A stretch of 64,000 nt of DNA from Candidatus Zixiibacteriota bacterium (GTDB taxonomy: Bacteria; Zixibacteria; MSB-5A5; GN15; FEB-12), in NCBI GenBank assembly GCA_040753875.1, contig JBFMDV010000023.1, positions 1 to 64,000 of the forward strand. Reading direction: 5' to 3'. The notes beneath the pieces were generated by a model. That model did not search any database. It saw nothing but the letters and a program-made list of their open reading frames with translations, and was not told the origin of the DNA. This document shows positions 6,904-63,758 of this stretch, piece after piece. A program made the position numbers and the translations under genes. Numbering within the stretch: position 1 is the first letter of the stretch; every line of letters begins with the position of its first letter.

Positions 6904-8343
6904 ATGGTCAAAGAGAAAACGCACAAAGTCAGACCGCAGGTCCTGAAGGGGTTTCGGGATTATCCGCCCGAAGAGCAGATCGCCCGCGAAAAGATGTTGG
7001 GTAAGGTCCGTGAAGCGGTCGAGTTGATGGGGTTTCTGCCGCTGCAGACGGCATCGCTTGAATTTGCCGAGACGTTGCTTGGCTCTCATTACACCAAGGA
7101 CTCACTGGCGGAACTATTTGGATTCCATGGTCCTGACGATGTGGAAATGGCGTTGCGTTACGAGTTTACGCTGTCGTTGGCTCGCTACGTCGCCAGCCAG
7201 TCGGATTTGGCCATGCCGTTTCGTCGGTATCAGTACGGTAATGTCTGGCGAGTAGACAAACCTGGGCCGGGTCGGTTCCGCGAGTTCATGCAGTTCGACA
7301 TCGACATTGTGGGTACCCAGAATCTTTTGGCCGATGCCGAAATCATCGCGGCGATGGTGACAATACTTGAGCATCTCGGTGTGGAACGATTCAAGGTCAG
7401 ATTCTCCGATCGCAAACTGTTAAATGGTGTCATCGTGTGGGCAGGTGTGCCGCATGAGCGGGCTCCGGATGTCATGCGGGTAATTGACAAACTGGAGAAG
7501 CAGGGAAAAGAAGCGGTGATGCTGGAACTTGGGCCAGGAAGAACGGATAAGTCGGGGGACAAGATCACAGGACTCAACTTGAGCGCGAACCAGATCGACA
7601 GGATTGGACAGTTTCTCGAACTGGCCTCTGCACACGAGGGGGACCCGCTGAAGAAGATTGAGCAATTGGCAGGCGGCGTGACGGCCTCAGCTGAGGGAGT
7701 CAGTGAGCTTACGCAGATCGCTTCGCACCTTCAGGCCATGGGCGTCTCGACAGATAAGACGACGATTGACCTCACTATCGTTCGTGGCCTTGGTTACTAC
7801 ACCGGCCCGGTATTCGAAACCACGCTGCTTGACCTGCCTGAATTCGGCTCGGTCTTTTCCGGCGGGCGGTATGACAATCTGGTGGAGCGATTCCTCAACA
7901 AGTCCATCCCTGCAGTCGGCACATCGATGGGGGTTGATCGGTTACTCGCCGCGTTGATTCAACTGAAGGCGCTGAAGCTGACGTCGTCGACCTCGCAGGT
8001 GCTGGTGACGGTGATGGACCGGGAACGGCTGGCGGATTACTTGGCCATTCTCAGAGAGCTGCGAGGGGCAGGAATTCCATCGGAAATCTACTCGGGCGAT
8101 ACCAAGAATCTGACCAAGCAGATCAAGTACGGTGATAAAGTGGGGATACCATTTGCCGTAATTGCCGGTTCCGATGAGTTTGCCTCGAATCAGGTCACGG
8201 TCAAAAATATGGCGGCCGGAGCGCAAAAGGCCCACGGCACCGCCAACCGGGAGCAGTGGCTGGCTGCGGAGGGGTTTCAGGAGCGGATTGCCAGGTCCGA
8301 CCTGGTCAGGTATCTCAAAGAACGGCTTACGCCTGCGTCATAA
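6904..8343 (+). CDS. hisS: histidyl-tRNA synthetase
   Basis: Charges tRNA-His with histidine in the cytoplasm; class II synthetase of 479 aa. Motif 1 region begins with VLKGFRDYPPEEQ, motif 2 is MPFRRYQYGNVWR...GRFREFMQFDIDIVG, the histidine-binding LGYYTGPVFE loop is present, and motif 3 is GTSMGVDRLLAAL. The C-terminal anticodon-binding domain follows, with QVLVTVMD and YSGDTKNLTKQIKYGDK. Upstream is a 143-bp repeat-bearing gap, so it probably starts a new transcript; the NapH-like ferredoxin gene is 37 bp downstream. Confidence 0.97.
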   Translation: MVKEKTHKVRPQVLKGFRDYPPEEQIAREKMLGKVREAVELMGFLPLQTASLEFAETLLGSHYTKDSLAELFGFHGPDDVEMALRYEFTLSLARYVASQSDLAMPFRRYQYGNVWRVDKPGPGRFREFMQFDIDIVGTQNLLADAEIIAAMVTILEHLGVERFKVRFSDRKLLNGVIVWAGVPHERAPDVMRVIDKLEKQGKEAVMLELGPGRTDKSGDKITGLNLSANQIDRIGQFLELASAHEGDPLKKIEQLAGGVTASAEGVSELTQIASHLQAMGVSTDKTTIDLTIVRGLGYYTGPVFETTLLDLPEFGSVFSGGRYDNLVERFLNKSIPAVGTSMGVDRLLAALIQLKALKLTSSTSQVLVTVMDRERLADYLAILRELRGAGIPSEIYSGDTKNLTKQIKYGDKVGIPFAVIAGSDEFASNQVTVKNMAAGAQKAHGTANREQWLAAEGFQERIARSDLVRYLKERLTPAS

Positions 8344-8380
8344 TCGACCATTCTTGACTATAATCAAGGCCGACAACCCC

Positions 8381-9472
8381 ATGACATCCGATATTCCCGG
8401 CATGGAATCGAAAGTCGCCACCCGGAGGCAAATACCGGTCGGGGTACAGTTGCGGAGAAGGCACGAACGGAACAGCGCTCAGCCATTTCGATTCTACGCT
8501 CAGTTGTTTTCGCTGGCGATCAATCTCTGGATAGGCGCGCAGTTCTATCTCTGGTACAGTTCACTTCAATCCGGAGTCGGTGGCCCGATAGTCTCCCGTC
8601 CGCCCGGGGTGGAGGGATGGCTACCCATCGGTTCGCTGGTGGGGTCACGGTACTTCTTCGCTACCGGCATTCTTAATACGATCCATCCGGCGGGACTGGT
8701 CATCCTGGTGGTGATCCTTCTGACAGCCTTCGTGTTCAAGAAGGGATTCTGTTCATGGGTCTGTCCGATTGGATTCATCTCGGAGATGCTCGGGGACCTT
8801 TCAGACAAACTATTCCGAAAGAGAATCAAACCACCCCGCTGGCTGGACTATCCGCTTCGCTCGCTCAAGTATCTTCTGCTGTTGTTCTTTGTCTACGCTG
8901 TGTTTATCAGCATGACTTCTGATTCCATCAAGGCGTTTCTCTATTCGGATTACAACGTGGTTTCGGATATCCTGATGCTTCGCTTTTTCACCGATATCAG
9001 CATGTTCGCACTGTCGGTAATAGCCGTGCTTTTCGCATCTTCGCTTATCGTGCGTGGCTTTTGGTGCCGCTACCTGTGCCCGTATGGTGCGTTGCTTGGG
9101 TTGGCGAATCTGATTTCCCCCACCCGGATCCGCCGCAACGCCTCTTCCTGCATTGATTGCGCCGCGTGCGCCAAAGTCTGCCCAGCGTTCATCAAGGTGG
9201 ACAGAGTAACTGAAGTGGTCTCGGATGAGTGTGTCGGTTGCATGGCGTGTGTGGATTCCTGCCCGGTGAAACAGACGCTTGAGATTCACATGGTGAGAAA
9301 GAACCGAACCGTCTCAAGCGTCAAATGGGCTGTGGTACTGGTCATCTTCTTCTGGGGCGCCCTGCTGGCGGCCAAGCTGTTTGGTCCGTGGGGCAATTCA
9401 ATCACCACAGAGCAGTATCGCGAGTACATACCCGGAGTCGAGAAGGGACAGTACACACACCCATCATACTAA
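8381..9472 (+). CDS. NapH-like membrane-bound [4Fe-4S] protein
   Basis: 363-residue integral membrane iron-sulfur protein of the NapH/YccM/NosR-C-terminal type, which passes electrons between quinol or flavin partners and periplasmic or cytoplasmic acceptors. Four or five hydrophobic segments are visible. Two CxxxCP motifs of the family are present (CSWVCPIGF, CRYLCPYGALLG), followed by a two-cluster ferredoxin module CIDCAACAKVCP and CVGCMACVDSCP. An upstream in-frame extension overlaps hisS and is not credible; ATG 8381 or ATG 8402 are the likely starts. No dedicated reductase is adjacent, so the partner is unknown. The operon neighbour hisS gives no functional hint. Confidence 0.85.
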   Translation: MTSDIPGMESKVATRRQIPVGVQLRRRHERNSAQPFRFYAQLFSLAINLWIGAQFYLWYSSLQSGVGGPIVSRPPGVEGWLPIGSLVGSRYFFATGILNTIHPAGLVILVVILLTAFVFKKGFCSWVCPIGFISEMLGDLSDKLFRKRIKPPRWLDYPLRSLKYLLLLFFVYAVFISMTSDSIKAFLYSDYNVVSDILMLRFFTDISMFALSVIAVLFASSLIVRGFWCRYLCPYGALLGLANLISPTRIRRNASSCIDCAACAKVCPAFIKVDRVTEVVSDECVGCMACVDSCPVKQTLEIHMVRKNRTVSSVKWAVVLVIFFWGALLAAKLFGPWGNSITTEQYREYIPGVEKGQYTHPSY

Positions 9473-13876: not shown

Positions 13877-14617
13877 ATGAATCGACTCCCTCGGCAACTG
13901 ACTCCGCTACTGGTGATCTTTGTGGTCGCTATAGGCAGTCTGTTCGTCGCACGTCATCTGCTCGTCCCAAGGACTTTCGGCGAATACGGTCACTATCGCG
14001 CCGCCGCGGTAGGGGAGATCGCCGGACAGGAGTTCACCTATGCGGGATCGCTCGCGTGCGCAGATTGTCATAGCGATGTCTACGACCTCAAGCAAAACTC
14101 ATTTCATGCCGGCGTGGCATGCGAGGTCTGTCATGGACCGGCCAAAAGACATGTCGACGCCCCGGATGAGTTCGTCCCGGAGAAGCCGAAAGGCCGTGGG
14201 TTCTGCCCCTTGTGTCACGGTTATAACCCATCGCGCCCCTCCGGTTTTCCGCAGATTTTGCCCGATGTTCATAATGCCGGAAAAGCGTGTATGACCTGTC
14301 ACGAGCCGCATAATCCGACGCTACCGCACCCACCGGAGGAATGCAGCGCTTGCCATCGCGAGATAGCCAGCAAAAAGATGGTCTCGCGGCACACGAACGT
14401 AGCATGTACCGTTTGTCATACCGTTCCCCCCGAACATTATCAAAACCCGCGACTGGCGCTGGCCAAGAAACCTCTCAGCAAGGCGGTGTGTGGCCAGTGT
14501 CATGCGAGCGACGCTTCGAGTTCAAGAGAAATCCCACGGGTCGATATGACCGCGCACGGCGGTCGGTACCAATGCTGGGATTGCCATTACCCCCATTATC
14601 CGGAGGCAATACAATGA
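13877..14617 (+). CDS. membrane-anchored octahaem c-type cytochrome
   Basis: 246 aa with an N-terminal anchor or uncleaved signal (LLVIFVVAIGSLFVA, residues 11-25) and eight CxxCH haem sites: starts at residues 61, 82, 110, 138, 156, 177, 205 and 233. All are plain CxxCH, with many additional histidines available as distal ligands. It is a small electron-carrier cytochrome facing the periplasm, too short to be a multihaem nitrite or sulfite reductase. The downstream gene overlaps its stop by four bases (ATGA), and a Tat ferredoxin plus NrfD protein follow, so it should be the periplasmic electron exit or entry point of a quinone-linked membrane complex. Confidence 0.9.
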   Translation: MNRLPRQLTPLLVIFVVAIGSLFVARHLLVPRTFGEYGHYRAAAVGEIAGQEFTYAGSLACADCHSDVYDLKQNSFHAGVACEVCHGPAKRHVDAPDEFVPEKPKGRGFCPLCHGYNPSRPSGFPQILPDVHNAGKACMTCHEPHNPTLPHPPEECSACHREIASKKMVSRHTNVACTVCHTVPPEHYQNPRLALAKKPLSKAVCGQCHASDASSSREIPRVDMTAHGGRYQCWDCHYPHYPEAIQ

Positions 14618-15387
14618 AGAAACTCGGTACGGATATGCCCCGGCGAGAATTCCTTGAGAATTGCTCGCGCGCCTTGCCCCCCTGGCTGCTTGTTTTTTCG
14701 GTGGTCGGTTCGGCCGAGTCCCTGGTAGCAGACGAAGAAGGCCAATATGATGCCTCAAAGCACAACTATGCCATGGGCGTCGATATTCATCGATGTATCG
14801 GGTGTGGTCGTTGTGCCGATGCCTGTAAGAAGGAGAATAAGGTCCCGCTGGAGCCCACTTTCTTCCGAACCTGGGTCGAGCGATACATAATTCCGACGAG
14901 CGGGGAGGCAAGAGTCGACAGCCCCAACGGCGGTATTGACGGATTCCCTGAACCACAGGAGGATATCGATGTCCTCCGGACCTTCTTCGTCCCCAAGCTG
15001 TGTAACCACTGTGCCAATCCACCGTGCGTGCAGGTCTGTCCTGTCGGGGCGACGTTTGAGTCGCGCGACGGCGTCGTTCTGGTAGATGATTCCTATTGCG
15101 TCGGTTGCCGGTATTGTATCCAGGCATGCCCCTATGGCGCTCGGTACCTGCATCCGGAAAAGAAAGTCGCCGATAAGTGCACATTCTGTTACCATCGGAT
15201 CACAAAAGGACTGGCGCCGGCATGCGTCGAGGTATGTCCGACCCAGGCGCGAATTTTCGGAGAATCCGGCCAACAGAGCAGCCCGCTCCGACATTTCTTG
15301 CGCTTCAATGATGTGAGCGTGCTCAAACCCTGGCTTAATACCTCGCCGAAAGTGTACTATGCAAACGCAGATGGGGAAGTGAGGTAA
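14614..15387 (+). CDS. Tat-exported four-cluster ferredoxin subunit (DmsB/NrfC/DsrO type)
   Basis: 257-residue iron-sulfur subunit. The start at 14614 overlaps the cytochrome stop and is preceded by CGGAGG. The N-terminus has a twin-arginine signal, PRREFLENC, then a hydrophobic stretch ending near AES, so the mature protein lies in the periplasm. Cysteine groups: CIGCGRCADAC, CNHCANPPCVQVC, CVGCRYCIQAC and CTFC...CVEVC, sixteen cysteines for four [4Fe-4S] clusters, with the insert between first and second groups typical of the family. It should carry electrons between the NrfD-type quinone subunit and the octahaem cytochrome. No molybdopterin catalytic subunit is encoded here. Confidence 0.92.
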   Translation: MKKLGTDMPRREFLENCSRALPPWLLVFSVVGSAESLVADEEGQYDASKHNYAMGVDIHRCIGCGRCADACKKENKVPLEPTFFRTWVERYIIPTSGEARVDSPNGGIDGFPEPQEDIDVLRTFFVPKLCNHCANPPCVQVCPVGATFESRDGVVLVDDSYCVGCRYCIQACPYGARYLHPEKKVADKCTFCYHRITKGLAPACVEVCPTQARIFGESGQQSSPLRHFLRFNDVSVLKPWLNTSPKVYYANADGEVR

Positions 15388-15390
15388 CCC

Positions 15391-16599
15391 GTGTTATTCG
15401 CATCGATTGCGGCGGTCCAGAACCTTCCCGAAGCGACCGGCTACATGTATCCGAATGAATTTGAGCTCCATTGGGGCTTGCTTATTGTCGTTTACCCTTA
15501 TTTGACCGGTCTGGTCGCCGGGGCCTTTATTCTGGCGTCTCTGGAACGGGTATTTAACGTAAAAGCTCTTCAGCCGGTGTATCGCCTGTCCCTTTTGACG
15601 GCCCTGTCGTTTATGCTGGCGGCCCCGCTTCCCCTTCTGGCCCACCTGGGTCACCCGGAGAGAGCTCTGGAAATGTTCCTGACACCACACACGCAGTCGG
15701 CCATGGCCATGTTTGGCTTTGTATACGCCTGGTATCTTGCGGTGGTATTATTGCTGGAAATCTGGTTTGACTACCGTAAGGCGATCGTAATGTGGTCCCG
15801 TGAATCGAAAGGTGTCAGGAAGTTCATCTACAAAGTGTTGAGTCTCGGAGCTACAGATACCACAGACGCCGCCGTCAATTTCGATGACAAAATCGGTCGG
15901 GTCATCACCATTATCGGTATCCCCTCGGCTTTCTTGCTGCACGGCTATGTCGGTTTCATCTTCGGCTCGGTCAAGGCGAACCCGTGGTGGAGCTCCGTGC
16001 TTATGCCGATCGTGTTTCTCTTTTCAGCGATTGTCTCGGGCATCGCTTTGGTGCTGCTCGTCTACATGGTTACAACGATGCTTCGCTGGAAGCAGATAAG
16101 CATGACCTGTCTCAACAAGCTGGGGGAATTGCTATTGTATGCCCTTATTGTCGATTTCGCTCTCGAGTTGCTCGATTTCATACATCGCTTATATGAATCG
16201 GAAGAATCCATCAATATCCTCCGCGAGATGATCTCAGGGCGGTTATTCATCAGCCTCATCGTCACACAGATTCTACTCGGAACCGCAATCCCCATGCTCT
16301 CATTGGCCTGGGCCCGCTTCGGTCGTCTGCCCGATGAAATGCGTAAAATCTTGTTCCTGATCGCTGCTTTCCTTGTTCAAGTTGGTATCTTCAGCACGCG
16401 CTGGAATGTCGTGATCGGAGGACAGCTCTTCTCGAAGAGTCTGCGAGGATTAACCGTGTACAAGTTAGAGCTCATGGGCCTTGAGGGTCTGTTCATGGCT
16501 ATGGCGCTGCTGGCGCTTCCGTTTGTCATCCTCTTTGTCCTCACGAAGTTGTTGCCACCCTGGGCACCATCTGAAGCATCAGTCTCAACCGAGACCTAA
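15391..16599 (+). CDS. NrfD/PsrC-family quinone-interacting membrane subunit
   Basis: 402 aa, about nine to ten membrane segments. PLPLLAHLGHPERALEMFLTPHTQSAMAMFGF contains the conserved H-LGHPERA region of NrfD/PsrC/DsrP proteins, and RWNVVIGGQLFSKS near the C-terminus matches the family's W-N-V-V-I-G-G-Q signature. The chain starts with GTG at 15391, three bases after the ferredoxin stop. NrfD-type subunits exchange electrons with menaquinone in the membrane and may couple this to proton transfer. Third gene of the octahaem cytochrome operon and apparently the last, as the next gene is on the opposite strand. Confidence 0.9.
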   Translation: MLFASIAAVQNLPEATGYMYPNEFELHWGLLIVVYPYLTGLVAGAFILASLERVFNVKALQPVYRLSLLTALSFMLAAPLPLLAHLGHPERALEMFLTPHTQSAMAMFGFVYAWYLAVVLLLEIWFDYRKAIVMWSRESKGVRKFIYKVLSLGATDTTDAAVNFDDKIGRVITIIGIPSAFLLHGYVGFIFGSVKANPWWSSVLMPIVFLFSAIVSGIALVLLVYMVTTMLRWKQISMTCLNKLGELLLYALIVDFALELLDFIHRLYESEESINILREMISGRLFISLIVTQILLGTAIPMLSLAWARFGRLPDEMRKILFLIAAFLVQVGIFSTRWNVVIGGQLFSKSLRGLTVYKLELMGLEGLFMAMALLALPFVILFVLTKLLPPWAPSEASVSTET

Positions 16600-16686: not shown

Positions 16687-17130
16687 TCAGTGCGCTTGCG
16701 AACTCGACGACGAACAGTTTCCGCACGTCCCGCCACCACACGCCTTGATCTCGCTGGTGATCATGTCGACGCGAATATCGGCTTCCATGCGAATCCCCTT
16801 TTCCGTACCTATCACGGAGATAACGATGCACTGGTCAGAAGGTCGAGAAGGAACAAGGCCCAGAAACGCCGAAAGTCCCTGTTGGAGTGCCGCCAGGTGC
16901 TTACGGGTGAGAAACTCCCATGTTTCGCTTAGAGTAGGCATAGCGGCCAGCACGGCTTCCGGCTTCGCCTCAAGGACTTCCTGGGCAGGTCTATTTGCCA
17001 CCAACTTGCGTAACAAAGAGGGGTTTCCTACTGACCCACCACAGGTGAGTTTCGAAAGCGAGTAATGCACCACGCGGTCCTGCTGGTCCAGCGTGACAGT
17101 CAGTTGTTCTGTGACATCCTGGCACGGCAT
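16687..17130 (-). CDS. cysteine-containing protein with NifU/IscU-like features
   Basis: 147 aa, uncertain family. The N-terminal half (VVHYSLSKLTCGGSVGNPSLLRKL, then QEVLEAKPEAV and FLTRKHLAALQQGLSAFLG) resembles the order of the IscU/NifU N-terminal scaffold: a cysteine after a substrate-like strand, a helix, and a KH-x-x-AL helix before a final cysteine (here SDQC). The C-terminus carries a CGGGTCGNC cluster followed by serines and a histidine, which could bind a metal. The start ATG lies only a few bases from a strong -10 box, so translation may be leaderless. A reading frame on the other strand (16646-17065) looks like its shadow. Role, perhaps in iron-sulfur or metal handling, is a guess. 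Confidence 0.5.
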   Translation of the reverse strand: MPCQDVTEQLTVTLDQQDRVVHYSLSKLTCGGSVGNPSLLRKLVANRPAQEVLEAKPEAVLAAMPTLSETWEFLTRKHLAALQQGLSAFLGLVPSRPSDQCIVISVIGTEKGIRMEADIRVDMITSEIKACGGGTCGNCSSSSSQAH

Positions 17131-57705: not shown

Positions 57706-59082
57706 TTACGGCCAAACGACTTGTGCAACGCGGTGAGACTGCTTGATACAATCGTTCAAGCCGATCCCATAATAAGCATTTCCGGTGATATGCAGGTTAC
57801 CGATCAACGCCAGTTCGGTTTCGATTTGCTTCATGATTCCGCTGTGACCGATATGAAACTGAGGTATCCCATGTCGCCATCGGTAGATACGCGTGATCTC
57901 GGGCGTGCCGGAAATCCCGACTATGGCATCGAGGTCGCGCCGGACCAATTCCACCAACTCGGAGTGAGAAAGGCCAGCCGATTCGTGGTCACCATCGCCT
58001 CCAACCATCGTCCGAAACTGTACTTTCCCTAACGGCGCCCGGTCGGCGAAAATCGATGATGTCCAGATCGAGCCGAGGATCCGCCTTCTCTCTTTTTTTG
58101 GTACCAGAAATCCAAAGCCGTTGAGGTCGGCACGCACGGCACCCACAGGGTACCCCATGCAAACGACTGCAATCGGCGCGTACGGGATCGATGCGAGAGC
58201 AGCGGATAGCTGTGCGGAAAGACTCTTAACGATTTCGGCTCCAGCGTGCGACGGTACCGCGAGAATGACAGTAGTTGCCGTCACCAGGCTGCCGTCTGCA
58301 AGTGCCACCAGGTACTGGGAATCACGTTTGGCAATACTTCTTACACCGAGCCCGGTTTGTATCTCGGTTGCGTACTTTTGCCTGAGCGCGTCGATGATCG
58401 CATCTAATCCACCATGGAACGATGTCAGCCAGCCGCCGGGTCCGGATGGTCCGCCGGTCGTACGCCCTGCTGCTTTGTGTCGACGTCCTCTGACAATCAT
58501 TGCCTTCAATAGCGACCCATACTCCGATTCCATCTCTTTCATAATGGGAAAACAGGATTGGAGCGAAAGCCGCTCCGCATCCCCGCCGTAGATACCGGAC
58601 ACCATCGGCTGTATCAGATAGTCGGCGGCCTGTCTGCCGATACGGCGCACCCCAAAGCTGTAAACGGACTCATCGTCACCGTTCGGTGGCCTGGAACCGA
58701 ACGGCTCCATCATAACTCGCAGCTTGCCGGAAAGAGGGAGGATATCTGAAGTCAGGAATTTGCCTGGGCTCATAGGAACAGACCGTAGCCTTCCTTCGCG
58801 CAGGATGAATCGGTTGCTCACATTGGCGTTGGCCGGTTCAAGTTGTTTCGTCAAACCCAGATCGTTACAGAGCTGGAGCGTCAACGGCTCGCGATCAAGG
58901 AAGCCGTTGGGACCCCAATCAAAGCTGTAACCGTCGATATGGTCAGTTCCGATCGTGCCCCCGAGCCGATTCTCGGATTCATAGAGGCAAACCGTCAGTT
59001 CAGGCTTGCGCTGCCGAATGAAGTGCAGAGCGGACAGACCTGAGATGCCGCCGCCTGCAATCAAAACATCAATGAGTGACAC
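57706..59082 (-). CDS. hemY: protoporphyrinogen oxidase (HemY/HemG FAD type)
   Basis: 458-residue FAD-dependent oxidase of the monoamine-oxidase fold that takes six electrons from protoporphyrinogen IX. FAD motif VLIAGGGISGLSALHFIRQ at about 5-24, ESENRLGG, the SVYSFGVRRIGRQAADYLIQPMVSGIYGGDAE central signature, and C-terminal ITGNAYYGIGLNDCIKQ. It overlaps the hemH end by 14 bp. HemY in Gram-positives acts on coproporphyrinogen; here the upstream HemN and absence of ChdC indicate the protoporphyrin route. It is the last gene of the haem operon. Confidence 0.92.
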   Translation of the reverse strand: MSLIDVLIAGGGISGLSALHFIRQRKPELTVCLYESENRLGGTIGTDHIDGYSFDWGPNGFLDREPLTLQLCNDLGLTKQLEPANANVSNRFILREGRLRSVPMSPGKFLTSDILPLSGKLRVMMEPFGSRPPNGDDESVYSFGVRRIGRQAADYLIQPMVSGIYGGDAERLSLQSCFPIMKEMESEYGSLLKAMIVRGRRHKAAGRTTGGPSGPGGWLTSFHGGLDAIIDALRQKYATEIQTGLGVRSIAKRDSQYLVALADGSLVTATTVILAVPSHAGAEIVKSLSAQLSAALASIPYAPIAVVCMGYPVGAVRADLNGFGFLVPKKERRRILGSIWTSSIFADRAPLGKVQFRTMVGGDGDHESAGLSHSELVELVRRDLDAIVGISGTPEITRIYRWRHGIPQFHIGHSGIMKQIETELALIGNLHITGNAYYGIGLNDCIKQSHRVAQVVWP

Positions 59083-60025
59083 GTGCCGAAACCCTTTCCC
59101 TGATCAGGTTAGCAAGCACCTGTGCGAATCGGTGATCGTCGTTGAACATTGGCATCCGCCGAATGCGAGGAGCGAGCGCGGGCCCGACCATCTCTCTCAG
59201 CTCGATGTCGAGTTCATATAGCGTCTCGATATGGTCACAAACGAAACTGATCGGCACTATGAACAGCCCGCCAGGACGCGAGGAAAGCAGGCGGCGCACT
59301 TCGCTGACCGTTTCCGGCTGGACCCATCTGACCGGGCCGGTCCGACTTTGAAACGCGACGTGGAAATCTCGGCCGCCCGCGGTGAGTTTGGCACTGCGCT
59401 TGATCTGTTCGACATACGGATCGCCATCCTGCACGAACTTTTCCGGCAACGAGTGAGCGGAGAATAACAGAGTCTCTCCCGGTCTGATATTCGCGTCGAT
59501 GAAGTCGCGAAGAAGCGATATATACATCGGATTGTCATGGTAGTCCCGTACGAACACGGAGGTGATTCCGCGGTAACCCGCCAACTGGCGCCCCGCTTCT
59601 TCGAACGATGATCCGGTTGTGGCGCGGCTATACTGCGGATACATGGGGATGAATATGAGCCGTCGAAATCCTTCGTGAAACGCGCGGTGTACAGCTTCTC
59701 CGATGGTCGGTTCGAAATAACGCATGCCGACAAAACACCGGAACCCGGGAAGTTCGGATCGCAGCAGTTCTTCGACCCGCCTCCGTTGTGCATCAGTCCA
59801 TGCGAATAGGGGCGAGCCACCGCCTATCATCGCATAATGACTCGCGACTTTGCCTTTTCGAGCACTCGATATGAACCACGCGAGCGGCTTTTGCAGAAAG
59901 GGTCCACCCGGCAGCCGAATGATCGACCGGTCTGAGAATATATTAAAGAGATACCGTCGTACGTTGTGGGTATTGTCGGGTCCTCCCATGGCCAGCAGGA
60001 TGGCGCATGTCTTTTCGTCACGCAT
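59069..60025 (-). CDS. hemH: ferrochelatase
   Basis: 318 aa. Inserts Fe2+ into protoporphyrin IX. Catalytic histidine in FSAHSLPEKFV and the acidic face SFVCDHIETLYELDIE with metal-path glutamates; the N-terminal LLAMGGPDNTHNVRRYLFNIFSD is the family start, and YGTSGSS-like TTGSSFEEA lies near the porphyrin pocket. No [2Fe-2S] extension is present. Nine bases follow the hemN stop. The oxidase gene overlaps its end. Confidence 0.95.
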   Translation of the reverse strand: MRDEKTCAILLAMGGPDNTHNVRRYLFNIFSDRSIIRLPGGPFLQKPLAWFISSARKGKVASHYAMIGGGSPLFAWTDAQRRRVEELLRSELPGFRCFVGMRYFEPTIGEAVHRAFHEGFRRLIFIPMYPQYSRATTGSSFEEAGRQLAGYRGITSVFVRDYHDNPMYISLLRDFIDANIRPGETLLFSAHSLPEKFVQDGDPYVEQIKRSAKLTAGGRDFHVAFQSRTGPVRWVQPETVSEVRRLLSSRPGGLFIVPISFVCDHIETLYELDIELREMVGPALAPRIRRMPMFNDDHRFAQVLANLIRERVSARVTH

Positions 60026-60034
60026 AACAATCGC

Positions 60035-61432
60035 TCAGATCGTCCGGGAGAACGTGGAGCCGGGAGTTGTTTCCTGGCTTTGGAGGTACGCATCAAATGT
60101 CATGGCTATATTTCGCACAAACGTGCGTCCCAGCGCCGTAATGCGCAGGCCGTCGTCGCCGATAACCAACAGGTCGTCATCCACGAACTCCGCCAGCGCG
60201 GATTGCTCGTGAACGAAGTACTCGATGAAGTTCACACCGAACCTTGTTTGCAGGCCGGAGAACGGTAGTTGGAAATTGCACATGAGTGTTGAAATAACAA
60301 ACTGGCGGATTTGATCATCCCGGGAAAGGCGTATGCCGCGATATACCGCAGTCTTGTCTCGGTCGATGGCCGTCTGATAGCTGTCGAGCCGCGACAAATT
60401 CTGATAGAATCCATTGTCGACATAACCGATTGACGACATGCCAAGGCCGATCATCTCCGGCGCGGCCTGGACAGTGTACCCCATGAAGTTTCGATGCAAC
60501 CTGCCGTCGACCTGGGCGATGGCCAGTTCATCGTTGGGAAGTGCAAAGTGGTCCATGCCGATCTGCCGGTAGCCGCCGCCGGTGAACCGCTCGACAGCAG
60601 TGGAGATGAGTCGGTATTTTGTCTCGGTACTCGGCAAGTCCTCGTAGCGGATCATTGACTGATGCGGCATCGCTTTCGGCAGATACGCGAACGAGTACAC
60701 GGCAACGCGATCGGGTTTCAGTCGCAAAGACAGTTCCAGGGTGTTTTCAAATGTCTCCGCAGTCTGACACGGCAGGCCGTAGATGAGATCGATGTTAATA
60801 CCTTTGAATCCGCGTGTGCGGCAATGCGCGATCAGATCTGCCACAAGCTCAAAGCTCTGGACGCGTCCGACGGCCTTTTGCACCGATTGATCGAAGTCCT
60901 GGACGCCCAATGAAATGCGGTTGAAACCGTTTTCCGAAAGAAAGTCGATCTGGTCGAATGACGTAACCCGCGGGTCGACTTCGATTGACTTTTCGCAGCC
61001 GTCCTCAAAGCGAAACTCCTCAGACAGACTCTGTAGAATGCGGGCAAAGCGAGCCGGATCGATAAACGTGGGAGTGCCACCACCGAAATGAAGCTGATTG
61101 ATGGTACGCCGGTCGCCGAGCAGGGAAACAACGTGGCGTGTCTCACGCAACAAGGCGCTGGAGTAACTGTCCACGCGCGAGGTGCTGTTGGTGATTACCG
61201 TGTTGCACCCGCAGTAATAACAGCGCCGTTGACAAAACGGAATATGGCAATAGATAGCCAACGGGTCAGTGGCTCGCTCTGATGCCGCTCGCAACGCCTC
61301 TTCATAATGTATCCTGCCAATCTCCTCTTTCCAGACCGGAACTGTCGGATAGCTGGTGTACCGCGGCCCGGAACGATCGTACTTGCGAAGCAGTTCAACG
61401 GGCACAGTCGTGCCGGCTGTCTCTGGACTCAT
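60035..61432 (-). CDS. hemN: oxygen-independent coproporphyrinogen III dehydrogenase
   Basis: 465-residue radical-SAM enzyme that decarboxylates two propionates of coproporphyrinogen III without oxygen. [4Fe-4S] site C67-QRR-C71-YY-C74 (with a nearby Cys76) in HIPFCQRRCYYCGCN, which is the true HemN signature that separates it from HemW. HFGGGTPTF, VQDFDQSVQKAVGR, MDHFALPNDELA and the C-terminal trip-wire-like domain LTCNFQLPF-type STLMCNFQLPFSGLQ are present. Overlaps hemE by 4 bp. Its presence fits an organism able to live without oxygen. Confidence 0.95.
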   Translation of the reverse strand: MSPETAGTTVPVELLRKYDRSGPRYTSYPTVPVWKEEIGRIHYEEALRAASERATDPLAIYCHIPFCQRRCYYCGCNTVITNSTSRVDSYSSALLRETRHVVSLLGDRRTINQLHFGGGTPTFIDPARFARILQSLSEEFRFEDGCEKSIEVDPRVTSFDQIDFLSENGFNRISLGVQDFDQSVQKAVGRVQSFELVADLIAHCRTRGFKGINIDLIYGLPCQTAETFENTLELSLRLKPDRVAVYSFAYLPKAMPHQSMIRYEDLPSTETKYRLISTAVERFTGGGYRQIGMDHFALPNDELAIAQVDGRLHRNFMGYTVQAAPEMIGLGMSSIGYVDNGFYQNLSRLDSYQTAIDRDKTAVYRGIRLSRDDQIRQFVISTLMCNFQLPFSGLQTRFGVNFIEYFVHEQSALAEFVDDDLLVIGDDGLRITALGRTFVRNIAMTFDAYLQSQETTPGSTFSRTI

Positions 61433-62460
61433 GTCGGCCTCCGATAATTGTGCACTGTCTGCACCAGAGCCTCGACCGATGCCAGCGGTGTTTCCGGCAG
61501 TATCCCATGGCCGAGGTTGAACACCAGTCGTTCATGACAATCCAAACTGTCGAGGATTTCTTCGGTATGTTGGACCACTCGTTCAGGTGTGCCGAATAGC
61601 ACCGCCGGGTCAAGGTTTCCCTGAATCGCTTTTCCCGACAAGGCCGAGGCAGCTTCGCTCAAGTCCATGCGATAATCAACACCTACGACCTCGCACTCGA
61701 TGTCCTGTACGACATCGATATAGGGAGCGAGGTTGTTGACAAACAGGATCCTGGGGGTTCCCGGCCGCTTGAGCTCCCGGAAAATCTTGTTGATCGGTCT
61801 GGCGGACCAGTTGCAGTAGTCGTCCTTGGAGAGTATCCCGCCCCAACTATCGAATATCTGAACCGCGTCGGCGCCGGCATCAATCTGCGCCCGCAGGTAG
61901 TCGACCGTGACATCGACAAGCAATGTCATCAACTCCTCGGAGGCGTCCGGATAGCGGTGCAGAAACTGCTTGGCTTTGTCGAACGAGTGCGATCCTTTGC
62001 CGTTGATAAGATAACAGGCCAGCGTGAATGGGGAACCGGCGAACCCAATGACCGGAGTCGAGGGGAGTGCCAATTTAATCCGGCGAATCCCCTCGGGTAC
62101 GAACCAGAGTTCTTTGTTGACATCAAACCGCCGAAGTTCGGCTACGTCGGCTGGGTTTTTAATAGTCTTCTGAAGCTGCGGTCCACCATCGGGGAACACA
62201 ACCGGGATTCCCATTGGTTCGACTATGGTGAGTATATCTGAGAACAAGATCGCGGCATCAAGTCCAAATCTCTCCACGGGCTGGCGGACCACCTCAGCGA
62301 TCAGTTCGGGGGTTCGGCACAGTTCCAGAAACGAGACTCGTTCGCGAACAGCACGGTAATCCGGCAGATACCGTCCCGCCTGACGCATGATCCAAACCGG
62401 AATCGGCCCATCGTTTTCACCACGGCAGGCCTTAAGGAACGGGCTGTTGCTTATGTCCAT
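61429..62460 (-). CDS. hemE: uroporphyrinogen decarboxylase
   Basis: 343 aa. Removes four acetate carboxylates of uroporphyrinogen III. IPVWIMRQAGRYLPDYRAVR with the two arginines, FSDILTIVEPMG with the catalytic aspartate, GFAGSPFTLACYLI, FDSWGGIL and NLGHGILPETP are all present. The start overlaps hemL by 10 bp, so translation is coupled. Middle of the haem operon. Confidence 0.97.
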   Translation of the reverse strand: MDISNSPFLKACRGENDGPIPVWIMRQAGRYLPDYRAVRERVSFLELCRTPELIAEVVRQPVERFGLDAAILFSDILTIVEPMGIPVVFPDGGPQLQKTIKNPADVAELRRFDVNKELWFVPEGIRRIKLALPSTPVIGFAGSPFTLACYLINGKGSHSFDKAKQFLHRYPDASEELMTLLVDVTVDYLRAQIDAGADAVQIFDSWGGILSKDDYCNWSARPINKIFRELKRPGTPRILFVNNLAPYIDVVQDIECEVVGVDYRMDLSEAASALSGKAIQGNLDPAVLFGTPERVVQHTEEILDSLDCHERLVFNLGHGILPETPLASVEALVQTVHNYRRPT

Positions 62461-63758
62461 GAATGTGCTTCCTTGCCGATCGCGGAAGCGAGGACCTCGA
62501 CCGCTTGATCGAGCATTTCGTTAGTATGCGCGGCTGACAGGAAACAGACCTCGTAGCCCGAAGGAGGCAAATATAGCCCGGCATCGAGAATCCTTTCGTG
62601 CACCCGGTTGTAGTGTGAGATACCGTCACTACTGATAGTGTCAGCAGACAAGGGGAGCTCGCGCTGAAACACGATCCAGAAAATGGATGCCACGCCGGCA
62701 ATGTTCACGGCTCGCCCGCTCAGCCGCTGCATGAGCGAACCCACAAAACGGCGATTGCGCTCTTCCAGCTGGGCGTGAATCTTCCCGTCAGCGAGTTTTG
62801 TGAGTGTCGCCAACCCGGCCGCCATGGCTACCGGATTGCCCGAAAGCGTTCCAGCCTGATAGACCGGTCCAAGCGGGGAGAGCATATCCATAATATCTGT
62901 GCGGCCACCGAAGGCGCCGACCGGCATCCCGCCGCCGATGATCTTACCGTACGTTAGAAGGTCAGGTCGAATACCGTAATATGCTGCTGCGCCACCCATC
63001 CCGAGACGGAATCCGGTGATGACTTCGTCGAAAATCAACAGTGCCCCGTGTTTTTCCGTAAGTGCCCGAAGCAGGCGAACGTAGTCATGCCGCTGAATAA
63101 GCAAGCCGTTATTTGCCGGGACCCCTTCGATTATAACGGCCGCCAATTGGTCGCCATGCTGGTCGAAGAAGGTCTGGAGTGCCTCCTCATCGGCAAGCGG
63201 CAGGACTGCAGTGTGGCTGGTGATAGCGTCCGGAACGCCCGCCGATGACGGCTGCCCAAAGGTGGCCAGACCCGAGCCGGCCTTTACCAACAGGTGATCG
63301 CTGTGACCATGATAGCAGCCCTCAAATTTTAGTACGAGGTCTCGCCTGGTGAACCCCCTGGCCAGTCTAATAGCCGACATCACGGCCTCGGTACCTGACG
63401 ACACGAAACGAATCTTTTCTACCGGATCGATCTGTCTGACGATGAAGTCGGCGAGTTCGTATTCAAGCTCAGTCGAAGCGCCAAAAGTCATGCCCCGCTC
63501 GACTTGGGATTTGACAGCGGCAACGACATCCGGATCGCCATGTCCCAGAATGAGCGGTCCCCAGGAACTGCAGAAATCGATATAGCGGTTACCATCGATG
63601 TCATACAGGTACGCCCCCTCGCCCCGGTCGATCACGCGCGGCGTGCCCCCAACCGATTTGAACGCCCGAACCGGAGAGTTTACTCCGCCGGGGATGACCC
63701 GAGATGCGAGGCTGGTCAATTCTCTCGACCGCCCAGTGTTCAGTTTAGCGCCAATCAT
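62451..63758 (-). CDS. hemL: glutamate-1-semialdehyde 2,1-aminomutase
   Basis: 435 aa, PLP-dependent. Makes 5-aminolevulinate in the C5 pathway, so a glutamyl-tRNA reductase (HemA) is expected elsewhere or upstream. Schiff-base lysine in TYGKIIGGGMPVGAFGGR; YHGHSDHLLVKAGSGLATFG, FDEVITGFRLGMGG and GTLSGNPVAMAAGLA are family signatures. Overlaps hemB by 14 bp at its start and hemE by 10 bp at its end. The position between hemB and hemE is a common arrangement. Confidence 0.97.
   Translation of the reverse strand: MIGAKLNTGRSRELTSLASRVIPGGVNSPVRAFKSVGGTPRVIDRGEGAYLYDIDGNRYIDFCSSWGPLILGHGDPDVVAAVKSQVERGMTFGASTELEYELADFIVRQIDPVEKIRFVSSGTEAVMSAIRLARGFTRRDLVLKFEGCYHGHSDHLLVKAGSGLATFGQPSSAGVPDAITSHTAVLPLADEEALQTFFDQHGDQLAAVIIEGVPANNGLLIQRHDYVRLLRALTEKHGALLIFDEVITGFRLGMGGAAAYYGIRPDLLTYGKIIGGGMPVGAFGGRTDIMDMLSPLGPVYQAGTLSGNPVAMAAGLATLTKLADGKIHAQLEERNRRFVGSLMQRLSGRAVNIAGVASIFWIVFQRELPLSADTISSDGISHYNRVHERILDAGLYLPPSGYEVCFLSAAHTNEMLDQAVEVLASAIGKEAHSWT

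Follow-up and report, generated by a model that had tools for sequence, protein, structure and literature searches.

A three-gene unit coding for an octahaem c-type cytochrome, a ferredoxin and an NrfD-family membrane protein was analysed in a stretch of 64,000 nucleotides (nt), hereafter the window, comprising positions 1 to 64,000 of the forward strand of contig JBFMDV010000023.1 from a Candidatus Zixiibacteriota bacterium (GenBank assembly GCA_040753875.1). The three genes, and the membrane anchor of the cytochrome, are located as follows:

13877..14617, + strand: membrane-anchored octahaem c-type cytochrome, 246 amino acids (aa); eight CxxCH motifs, Cytochrome_C7 match with an expectation value (E) of 4.3e-12, eight-haem orthologues in relatives
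13898..13963, + strand: N-terminal transmembrane anchor of the cytochrome, residues 8-29; a helix in the AlphaFold2 (AF2) model; 91/92 octahaem cytochromes have a hydrophobic stretch ahead of their first haem motif
14614..15387, + strand: periplasmic ferredoxin of the twin-arginine translocation (Tat) type, 257 aa, four [4Fe-4S] clusters expected; Fer4_11 match, E 1.2e-28
15391..16599, + strand: predicted NrfD-family integral membrane quinol-interacting subunit, 402 aa; PF03916 match, E 7.5e-40

Gene layout and conservation of the trio

The end of the cytochrome gene and the start of the ferredoxin gene share 4 nt (ATGA), as expected from an earlier sequence-only reading that described one overlapping unit, whereas the ferredoxin and NrfD genes do not overlap and are separated by 3 nt. 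A promoter scan yielded 4 sites against 3.0 expected, for which reason no promoter is claimed. All 16 Cys residues of the cytochrome are used in the eight CxxCH motifs (shuffling its residues 20,000 times gave a mean of 0.074 and a maximum of 2 motifs), and a helix is predicted at residues 8-29, so that the eight haem sites and N-terminal anchor noted earlier in only 246 aa were recovered. No other frame of more than 80 codons in the window contained more than one CxxCH, and the cytochrome stands alone there. The ferredoxin starts with the Tat-like PRREFLENC, and its 16 cluster Cys were invariant in an alignment of 27 rows; an RRx[FLVIM] motif preceded cluster 1 in 121 of the 129 sequences tested, in agreement with the earlier description of a Tat-signal four-cluster protein.

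A scan of named genomes recovered at least 576 confirmed NrfD relatives, the best 80 of which were retained; the 27-row ferredoxin alignment and a 35-row NrfD alignment were chosen subsets of these 80 loci. The ferredoxin gene adjoined NrfD in 79 of the best 80, and the upstream cytochrome was an intact 8-haem protein in 63, a 4-haem protein in 13, and cut off, broken or absent in 4. At locus L057 a run of N lies just upstream of NrfD, at the expected place of the other two genes. The same three-gene order thus recurs widely in relatives, which answers the question, raised with the first reading, of whether the trio stays together.

NrfD orthologues were detected in 12 of the 54 genomes of the window's family and in 31 of the 132 genomes of its phylum, where identity to the window protein was mostly 71-78% (64% in genome G063, and 44% in G098 for the better-scoring of two matches); among the 34 aligned relatives it was 56-76%. 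A single match was found in 33 of the 35 wholly searched genomes and two matches in the other 2, in one of which the second match was only 29% identical. Genome G160, which holds locus L137 and is titled Rokuibacteriota, carries two NrfD copies, each 64% identical to that of the window. Record titles of the relatives, taken as labelled, name many phyla and mostly environmental genomes, the best named relatives being titled Candidatus Zixiibacteriota or GN15. No NrfD match was found in viral contigs, and the plasmid matches were haloarchaeal NrfDs of 30-35% identity in 5 records. The window genome has four NrfD genes in all; as read from translations, L002 lies by a molybdopterin-type enzyme, L003/L067 are of the alternative-complex-III type and L004/L068 lie by a 13-haem cytochrome.

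Duplication and candidate haem ligands of the cytochrome

The cytochrome is made up of two modules, each with four haem motifs:

14057..14314, + strand: first tetrahaem module, residues 61-146; closer to tetrahaem relatives than the second module
14342..14599, + strand: second tetrahaem module, residues 156-241, duplicated copy; 21-28-28 CxxCH spacing as in the first module

A gapless self-alignment joined the two halves with 32% identity over 87 residues (E 6e-19), and the CxxCH spacing of the whole protein reads 21-28-28, 18, 21-28-28. The identical pattern was present in 49 of 92 aligned octahaem cytochromes, the others deviating at one interval or more, mostly the last. This alignment, which also included 28 tetrahaem cytochromes, omits seven loci that duplicate other records as well as L162 (same genome as L111); the tetrahaem set started from 30 four-motif cytochromes and excludes L051, whose frame is broken, and L165, which contains a run of X from N. 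Mean identity to the tetrahaem relatives from Acidobacteria and Bacteroidota was 0.40 for the first half and 0.31 for the second. By these comparisons, the octahaem cytochrome arose by tandem duplication of a four-haem module.

In a careful NrfD tree of 50 chosen rows, all 29 octahaem NrfDs formed one clade (support 100/99; 100% of 200 bootstrap trees), with the tetrahaem clades falling outside it, so that one state change suffices. A tree of 121 rows, which omits roughly half of the loci from Zixibacteria as well as rows shorter than 330 aa, concurred once the truncated or N-masked cytochromes (L051 and L165) were excluded from the count of changes. Because the octahaem NrfDs form one clade, the duplication had a single origin, after which it spread. 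Records of Acidobacteria and Bacteroidota contained tetrahaem relatives, as did genomes of the phylum to which G146 belongs (matches in 36 of 297). A divergent unit composed of a 9-haem cytochrome, ferredoxin and NrfD was observed at L064 (G098:C62), in the same genome that holds the octahaem unit L065; the L064 NrfD clusters with the tetrahaem forms.

The His of all eight motifs was invariant in the 92 octahaem cytochromes, and exactly eight further His residues were invariant outside the motifs (H77, H92, H132, H145, H172, H187, H227 and H240; 92/92 each), with no ninth non-motif His above 75%. The two sets of four are in register between the cytochrome halves, and four non-motif His were retained in 27-28 of the 28 tetrahaem cytochromes. 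Because there is one invariant extra His per haem, the pattern speaks for bis-His electron-transfer haems at all eight sites and against an open catalytic haem. A fold search with the cytochrome model returned nothing at E 0.001, only partial matches, and the absence of a family from that search excludes nothing.

The NrfD subunit and likeness to known complexes

The membrane protein scored 137.9 bits against PF03916 (cut-off 25.8). Its AF2 model (predicted local distance difference test, pLDDT, 78; predicted template modelling score, pTM, 0.82; low confidence at residues 12-28 and 347-359) contains nine helices of at least 20 residues, so that the ten helices counted earlier have to be corrected to nine. 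Comparison with solved structures by sequence, either with single sequences or with profiles, found no NrfD relative; the fold search alone succeeded, with ActC, a subunit of alternative complex III, as the closest match to the model (355-366 residues aligned, Z 30.5-32.1) and PsrC further off (242 residues, Z 18.3). Three residues, all of them invariant in the 35-row alignment, are candidates for a quinone site:

15643..15645, + strand: His85, candidate proton/quinone residue of transmembrane helix (TMH) 2
15697..15699, + strand: Ser103, candidate quinone-pocket serine
16399..16401, + strand: Arg337, candidate TMH8 gate arginine, within helix 315-348

Quinone-binding NrfD-like subunits are described as having an Asp, Glu or His in TMH2 (Ser in SreC) together with a pocket Ser, and a gate arginine of this type has been described in them as well (PMC8076601). 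His85 and Ser103, assigned through motif and spacing and not by superposition, are 18 residues apart, which matches His74-Ser92 of NrfD and Asp106-Ser124 of DsrP1. Arg337, in the eighth long helix, may correspond to the published gate arginine, as suggested by its motif.

Among published complexes, the closest is CbcSTU (Cbc4) of Geobacter, a complex of three subunits (PMC11434368) that is assigned in published work as a menaquinol oxidoreductase; in G. metallireducens, CbcS-2 is a periplasmic four-haem protein that goes with the 4Fe-4S protein CbcT, and transcripts were raised in direct interspecies electron transfer (PMC10989804). Like CbcSTU, the trio combines a small multihaem cytochrome, a periplasmic 4Fe-4S ferredoxin and an NrfD-type membrane protein (labelled as a b-type cytochrome in the papers on CbcSTU), encoded by three contiguous genes without a catalytic gene. 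Unlike it, the trio has eight haems through duplication, where CbcS has four, and its NrfDs form a clade of their own. The tetrahaem relatives match the CbcSTU architecture as given in published descriptions, which stood in for the Geobacter sequences themselves in this comparison. CbcSTU was missing from the complexes with which the sequence-only reading had compared the trio (Dsr, Hmc, Nhc and Ohc), among which Ohc is not the same complex; three subunits, which had been taken as unusual, are exactly the number in CbcSTU, and it is the eight-haem cytochrome that makes the difference.

The trio is probably a minimal menaquinol:multihaem-cytochrome-c oxidoreductase that belongs to the CbcSTU kind as its octahaem variant. 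The earlier proposal, a minimal three-subunit conduit from quinone to cytochrome that lacks a catalytic subunit, is sustained by a trio that is conserved on its own, by the second His for each haem and by residues of quinone-site types at matching spacing. What is new here is the octahaem variant, the three-subunit Cbc4 architecture being already known. No description of the octahaem-ferredoxin-NrfD trio was found in the literature searched, which left out most subscription papers, and Table 1 of a 2021 survey of NrfD complexes (PMC8076601) includes no CbcU-type or octahaem-trio class. If the trio is a quinol exit to multihaem wires, its presence in phyla that have no cultured members could be used as a marker of respiration that is extracellular or periplasmic, and it would offer a clean test of the effect of four duplicated haems on such a complex.

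Other known systems share parts of this architecture. SirCD, a ferredoxin and NrfD pair able to replace CymA (PMC11434368), and NrfCD-type modules, which can supply soluble proteins of the periplasm with electrons (PMC6303296), resemble the trio in pairing a ferredoxin with NrfD and in their periplasmic electron output; they differ from it in that the pair of the trio is encoded with a dedicated octahaem cytochrome of fused repeats. The DsrJOP half of DsrMKJOP has the same cytochrome-ferredoxin-NrfD order, and DsrO and DsrP were among the top NCBIfam matches, but both scored below the cut-offs (178.4 vs 200 and 47.4 vs 350, respectively), no DsrM or DsrK lies beside the window operon or recurs at octahaem loci, and the haems are eight, not three. 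Ohc of Desulfovibrio also has three subunits (an octahaem cytochrome, an Fe-S protein and a membrane protein), but its membrane protein OhcC is a haem-b protein (PMC4641369), whereas that of the trio is a PF03916 NrfD with an ActC-like fold. Alternative complex III, a quinol:cytochrome c type complex, shares this fold; no ActB fusion, ActD, ActE or ActF was present among the window frames, and a separate locus of the alternative-complex-III type lies on contig C27.

Gene neighbours, proposed electron flow and alternative readings

The assembly of the complex, its quinol donor, direction and acceptor, and any proton translocation are what we infer from sequence. In the scheme proposed, NrfD would bind quinol close to the periplasmic face and the electrons would leave by way of the Tat-exported ferredoxin, whose four clusters would relay them to the membrane-anchored octahaem cytochrome. 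The latter would act as a short wire, with the first module docking on the complex and the added second module forming the output end, and would deliver electrons to multihaem cytochromes, soluble or very long, and through them to periplasmic or extracellular acceptors.

The neighbours of 87 octahaem and 13 tetrahaem loci were surveyed, with L050, L051, L065 and L071 entered as octahaem and five loci kept apart (three without a cytochrome, one 9-haem and one 2-haem). Among the neighbour clusters annotated in relatives, no enzyme or catalytic family recurred next to the octahaem trio, and the conserved catalytic subunit that the first reading had put forward as its counter-case was likewise not recurrent at these loci. 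An open reading frame with at least nine haems was located within 7 kb at 42/87 octahaem and 0/13 tetrahaem loci, in a sample skewed to close relatives and with some loci at contig ends; a Rieske or cytochrome b gene was present at 23/87 and 0/13, respectively, and both types of gene occurred together at 17 octahaem loci. The Ignavibacteria-like loci have the order DUF2339, octahaem cytochrome, ferredoxin, NrfD, Rieske, cytochrome b, 9-haem cytochrome and NapC-type 6-haem cytochrome. Among the 132 genomes of the phylum, a cytochrome b gene was found in 27/31 trio-bearing and 50/101 other genomes (Fisher p 1.5e-4) and a NapC-type long cytochrome in 15/31 and 17/101 (p 7e-4), although these p values ignore shared ancestry. 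The extracellular or soluble acceptor suggested earlier is therefore plausible from the gene neighbours of relatives, with the acceptor itself a prediction.

As side observations, a DUF2339 membrane protein gene lies beside the unit at 7/13 tetrahaem and 7/87 octahaem loci (L103 and L148 among others), and also at L199. In one distant tetrahaem clade (L191-L193) the unit is followed by a CCG/NarI-like (HdrD/DsrK-like) fusion, whose domains were tested in L191, and a 7-haem cytochrome; this arrangement recalls DsrMK, and at least there the module has become joined to an enzyme. No recurring CCG/NarI-like neighbour was seen at octahaem loci.

Multihaem proteins that could act as receivers are encoded in the window genome. 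Rieske, cytochrome b and 9-haem genes lie beside nuo-like genes on another contig, a cluster of 11-, 8- and 13-haem cytochromes lies on contig C4, and a further multihaem cluster was located on the contig of the window, 18-41 kb past its end (G000:C23:82012-104714; L216, L217). The latter includes an 11-haem/cytochrome-b fusion, 6-, 7- and 12-haem proteins and a 1066-aa protein with 42 CxxCH motifs. Two small cytochromes of this cluster gave no match to solved structures, so no nanowire is claimed. Since these clusters are on other contigs or at that distance from the window, the predicted receivers are present but unlinked to the trio.

Several observations weigh against the quinol-to-cytochrome reading, in addition to the limits given with the counts above. 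In the window's own family, a long multihaem cytochrome was present within 7 kb at 0/12 loci, for which reason linkage does not indicate an acceptor there; in the rest of the phylum the figure was 14/20. The cytochrome model had a pTM of 0.56 and partial fold matches alone, the direction of electron flow is not readable from sequence, and at L188/L202 (G288) a tetrahaem cytochrome directly precedes NrfD with no ferredoxin between them.

The best-surviving alternative, which we nevertheless hold to be unlikely, is that the trio works in reverse, as a cytochrome:menaquinone reductase like Qrc or Nhc that would feed the quinone pool with electrons from donors in the periplasm or outside the cell. 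Such a module would be physically reversible, and Qrc, an electrogenic NrfD complex with multihaem input, reduces menaquinone (PMC6303296); however, periplasmic hydrogenase or formate dehydrogenase families were not recurrent among the annotated neighbour clusters, and Cbc4, the published complex closest in architecture, is assigned the opposite role. A wider proposal, which we regard as rather unlikely, is that the trio and the Rieske/cytochrome b/9-haem unit that often adjoins it would form the two heads of a single respiratory machine, both oxidising menaquinol (through NrfD and a Q-cycle, respectively) and both discharging into shared very long multihaem cytochromes, and that this would be a distinct, unnamed system of many mostly uncultivated phyla.

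In a further reading, which we consider quite improbable, the trio would supply only the quinol-oxidising half of a reductase and the catalytic protein, for example a nitrite or oxyanion reductase, would be encoded elsewhere, in the way that NrfBCD serves NrfA. The capacity of NrfCD-type modules to feed soluble proteins (PMC6303296), and the molybdopterin-type enzyme or 13-haem cytochrome adjoining other NrfD complexes of this genome, would fit such a division; the lack of a recurring enzyme family beside the trio in relatives speaks against it, as does the genome's top PF02335 (NrfA) score, which at 22.2 bits falls short of the 24.1 cut-off and also led to the rejection of NrfABCD membership. 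The octahaem reductases ONR, OTR and MccA have one haem without a protein distal ligand. That the cytochrome is itself a small reductase akin to the octahaem nitrite, tetrathionate or sulfite reductases is highly improbable, since the resemblance to octahaem nitrite reductases, in sequence as in fold, is weak and local and is set against a second His conserved for every haem, a length of 246 aa versus about 500, a TIGR04315 score of 16.7 against a cut-off of 375, and eight haems that are explained by duplication of a tetrahaem carrier.

Three other regions of the window were noted. Directly downstream of the operon, on the opposite strand, a 147-aa frame (16687-17130, - strand) has CGGGTCGNC near its end and no Pfam match. 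A NapH/NosR-like membrane ferredoxin with Fer4_5 domains (8162-9472, + strand), whose true start is probably internal to the listed frame, lies 4.4 kb upstream with unrelated genes between. Towards the end of the window, a run of genes (57706-63758, - strand) is presumably involved in haem biosynthesis (hemG, H, N, E and L types).

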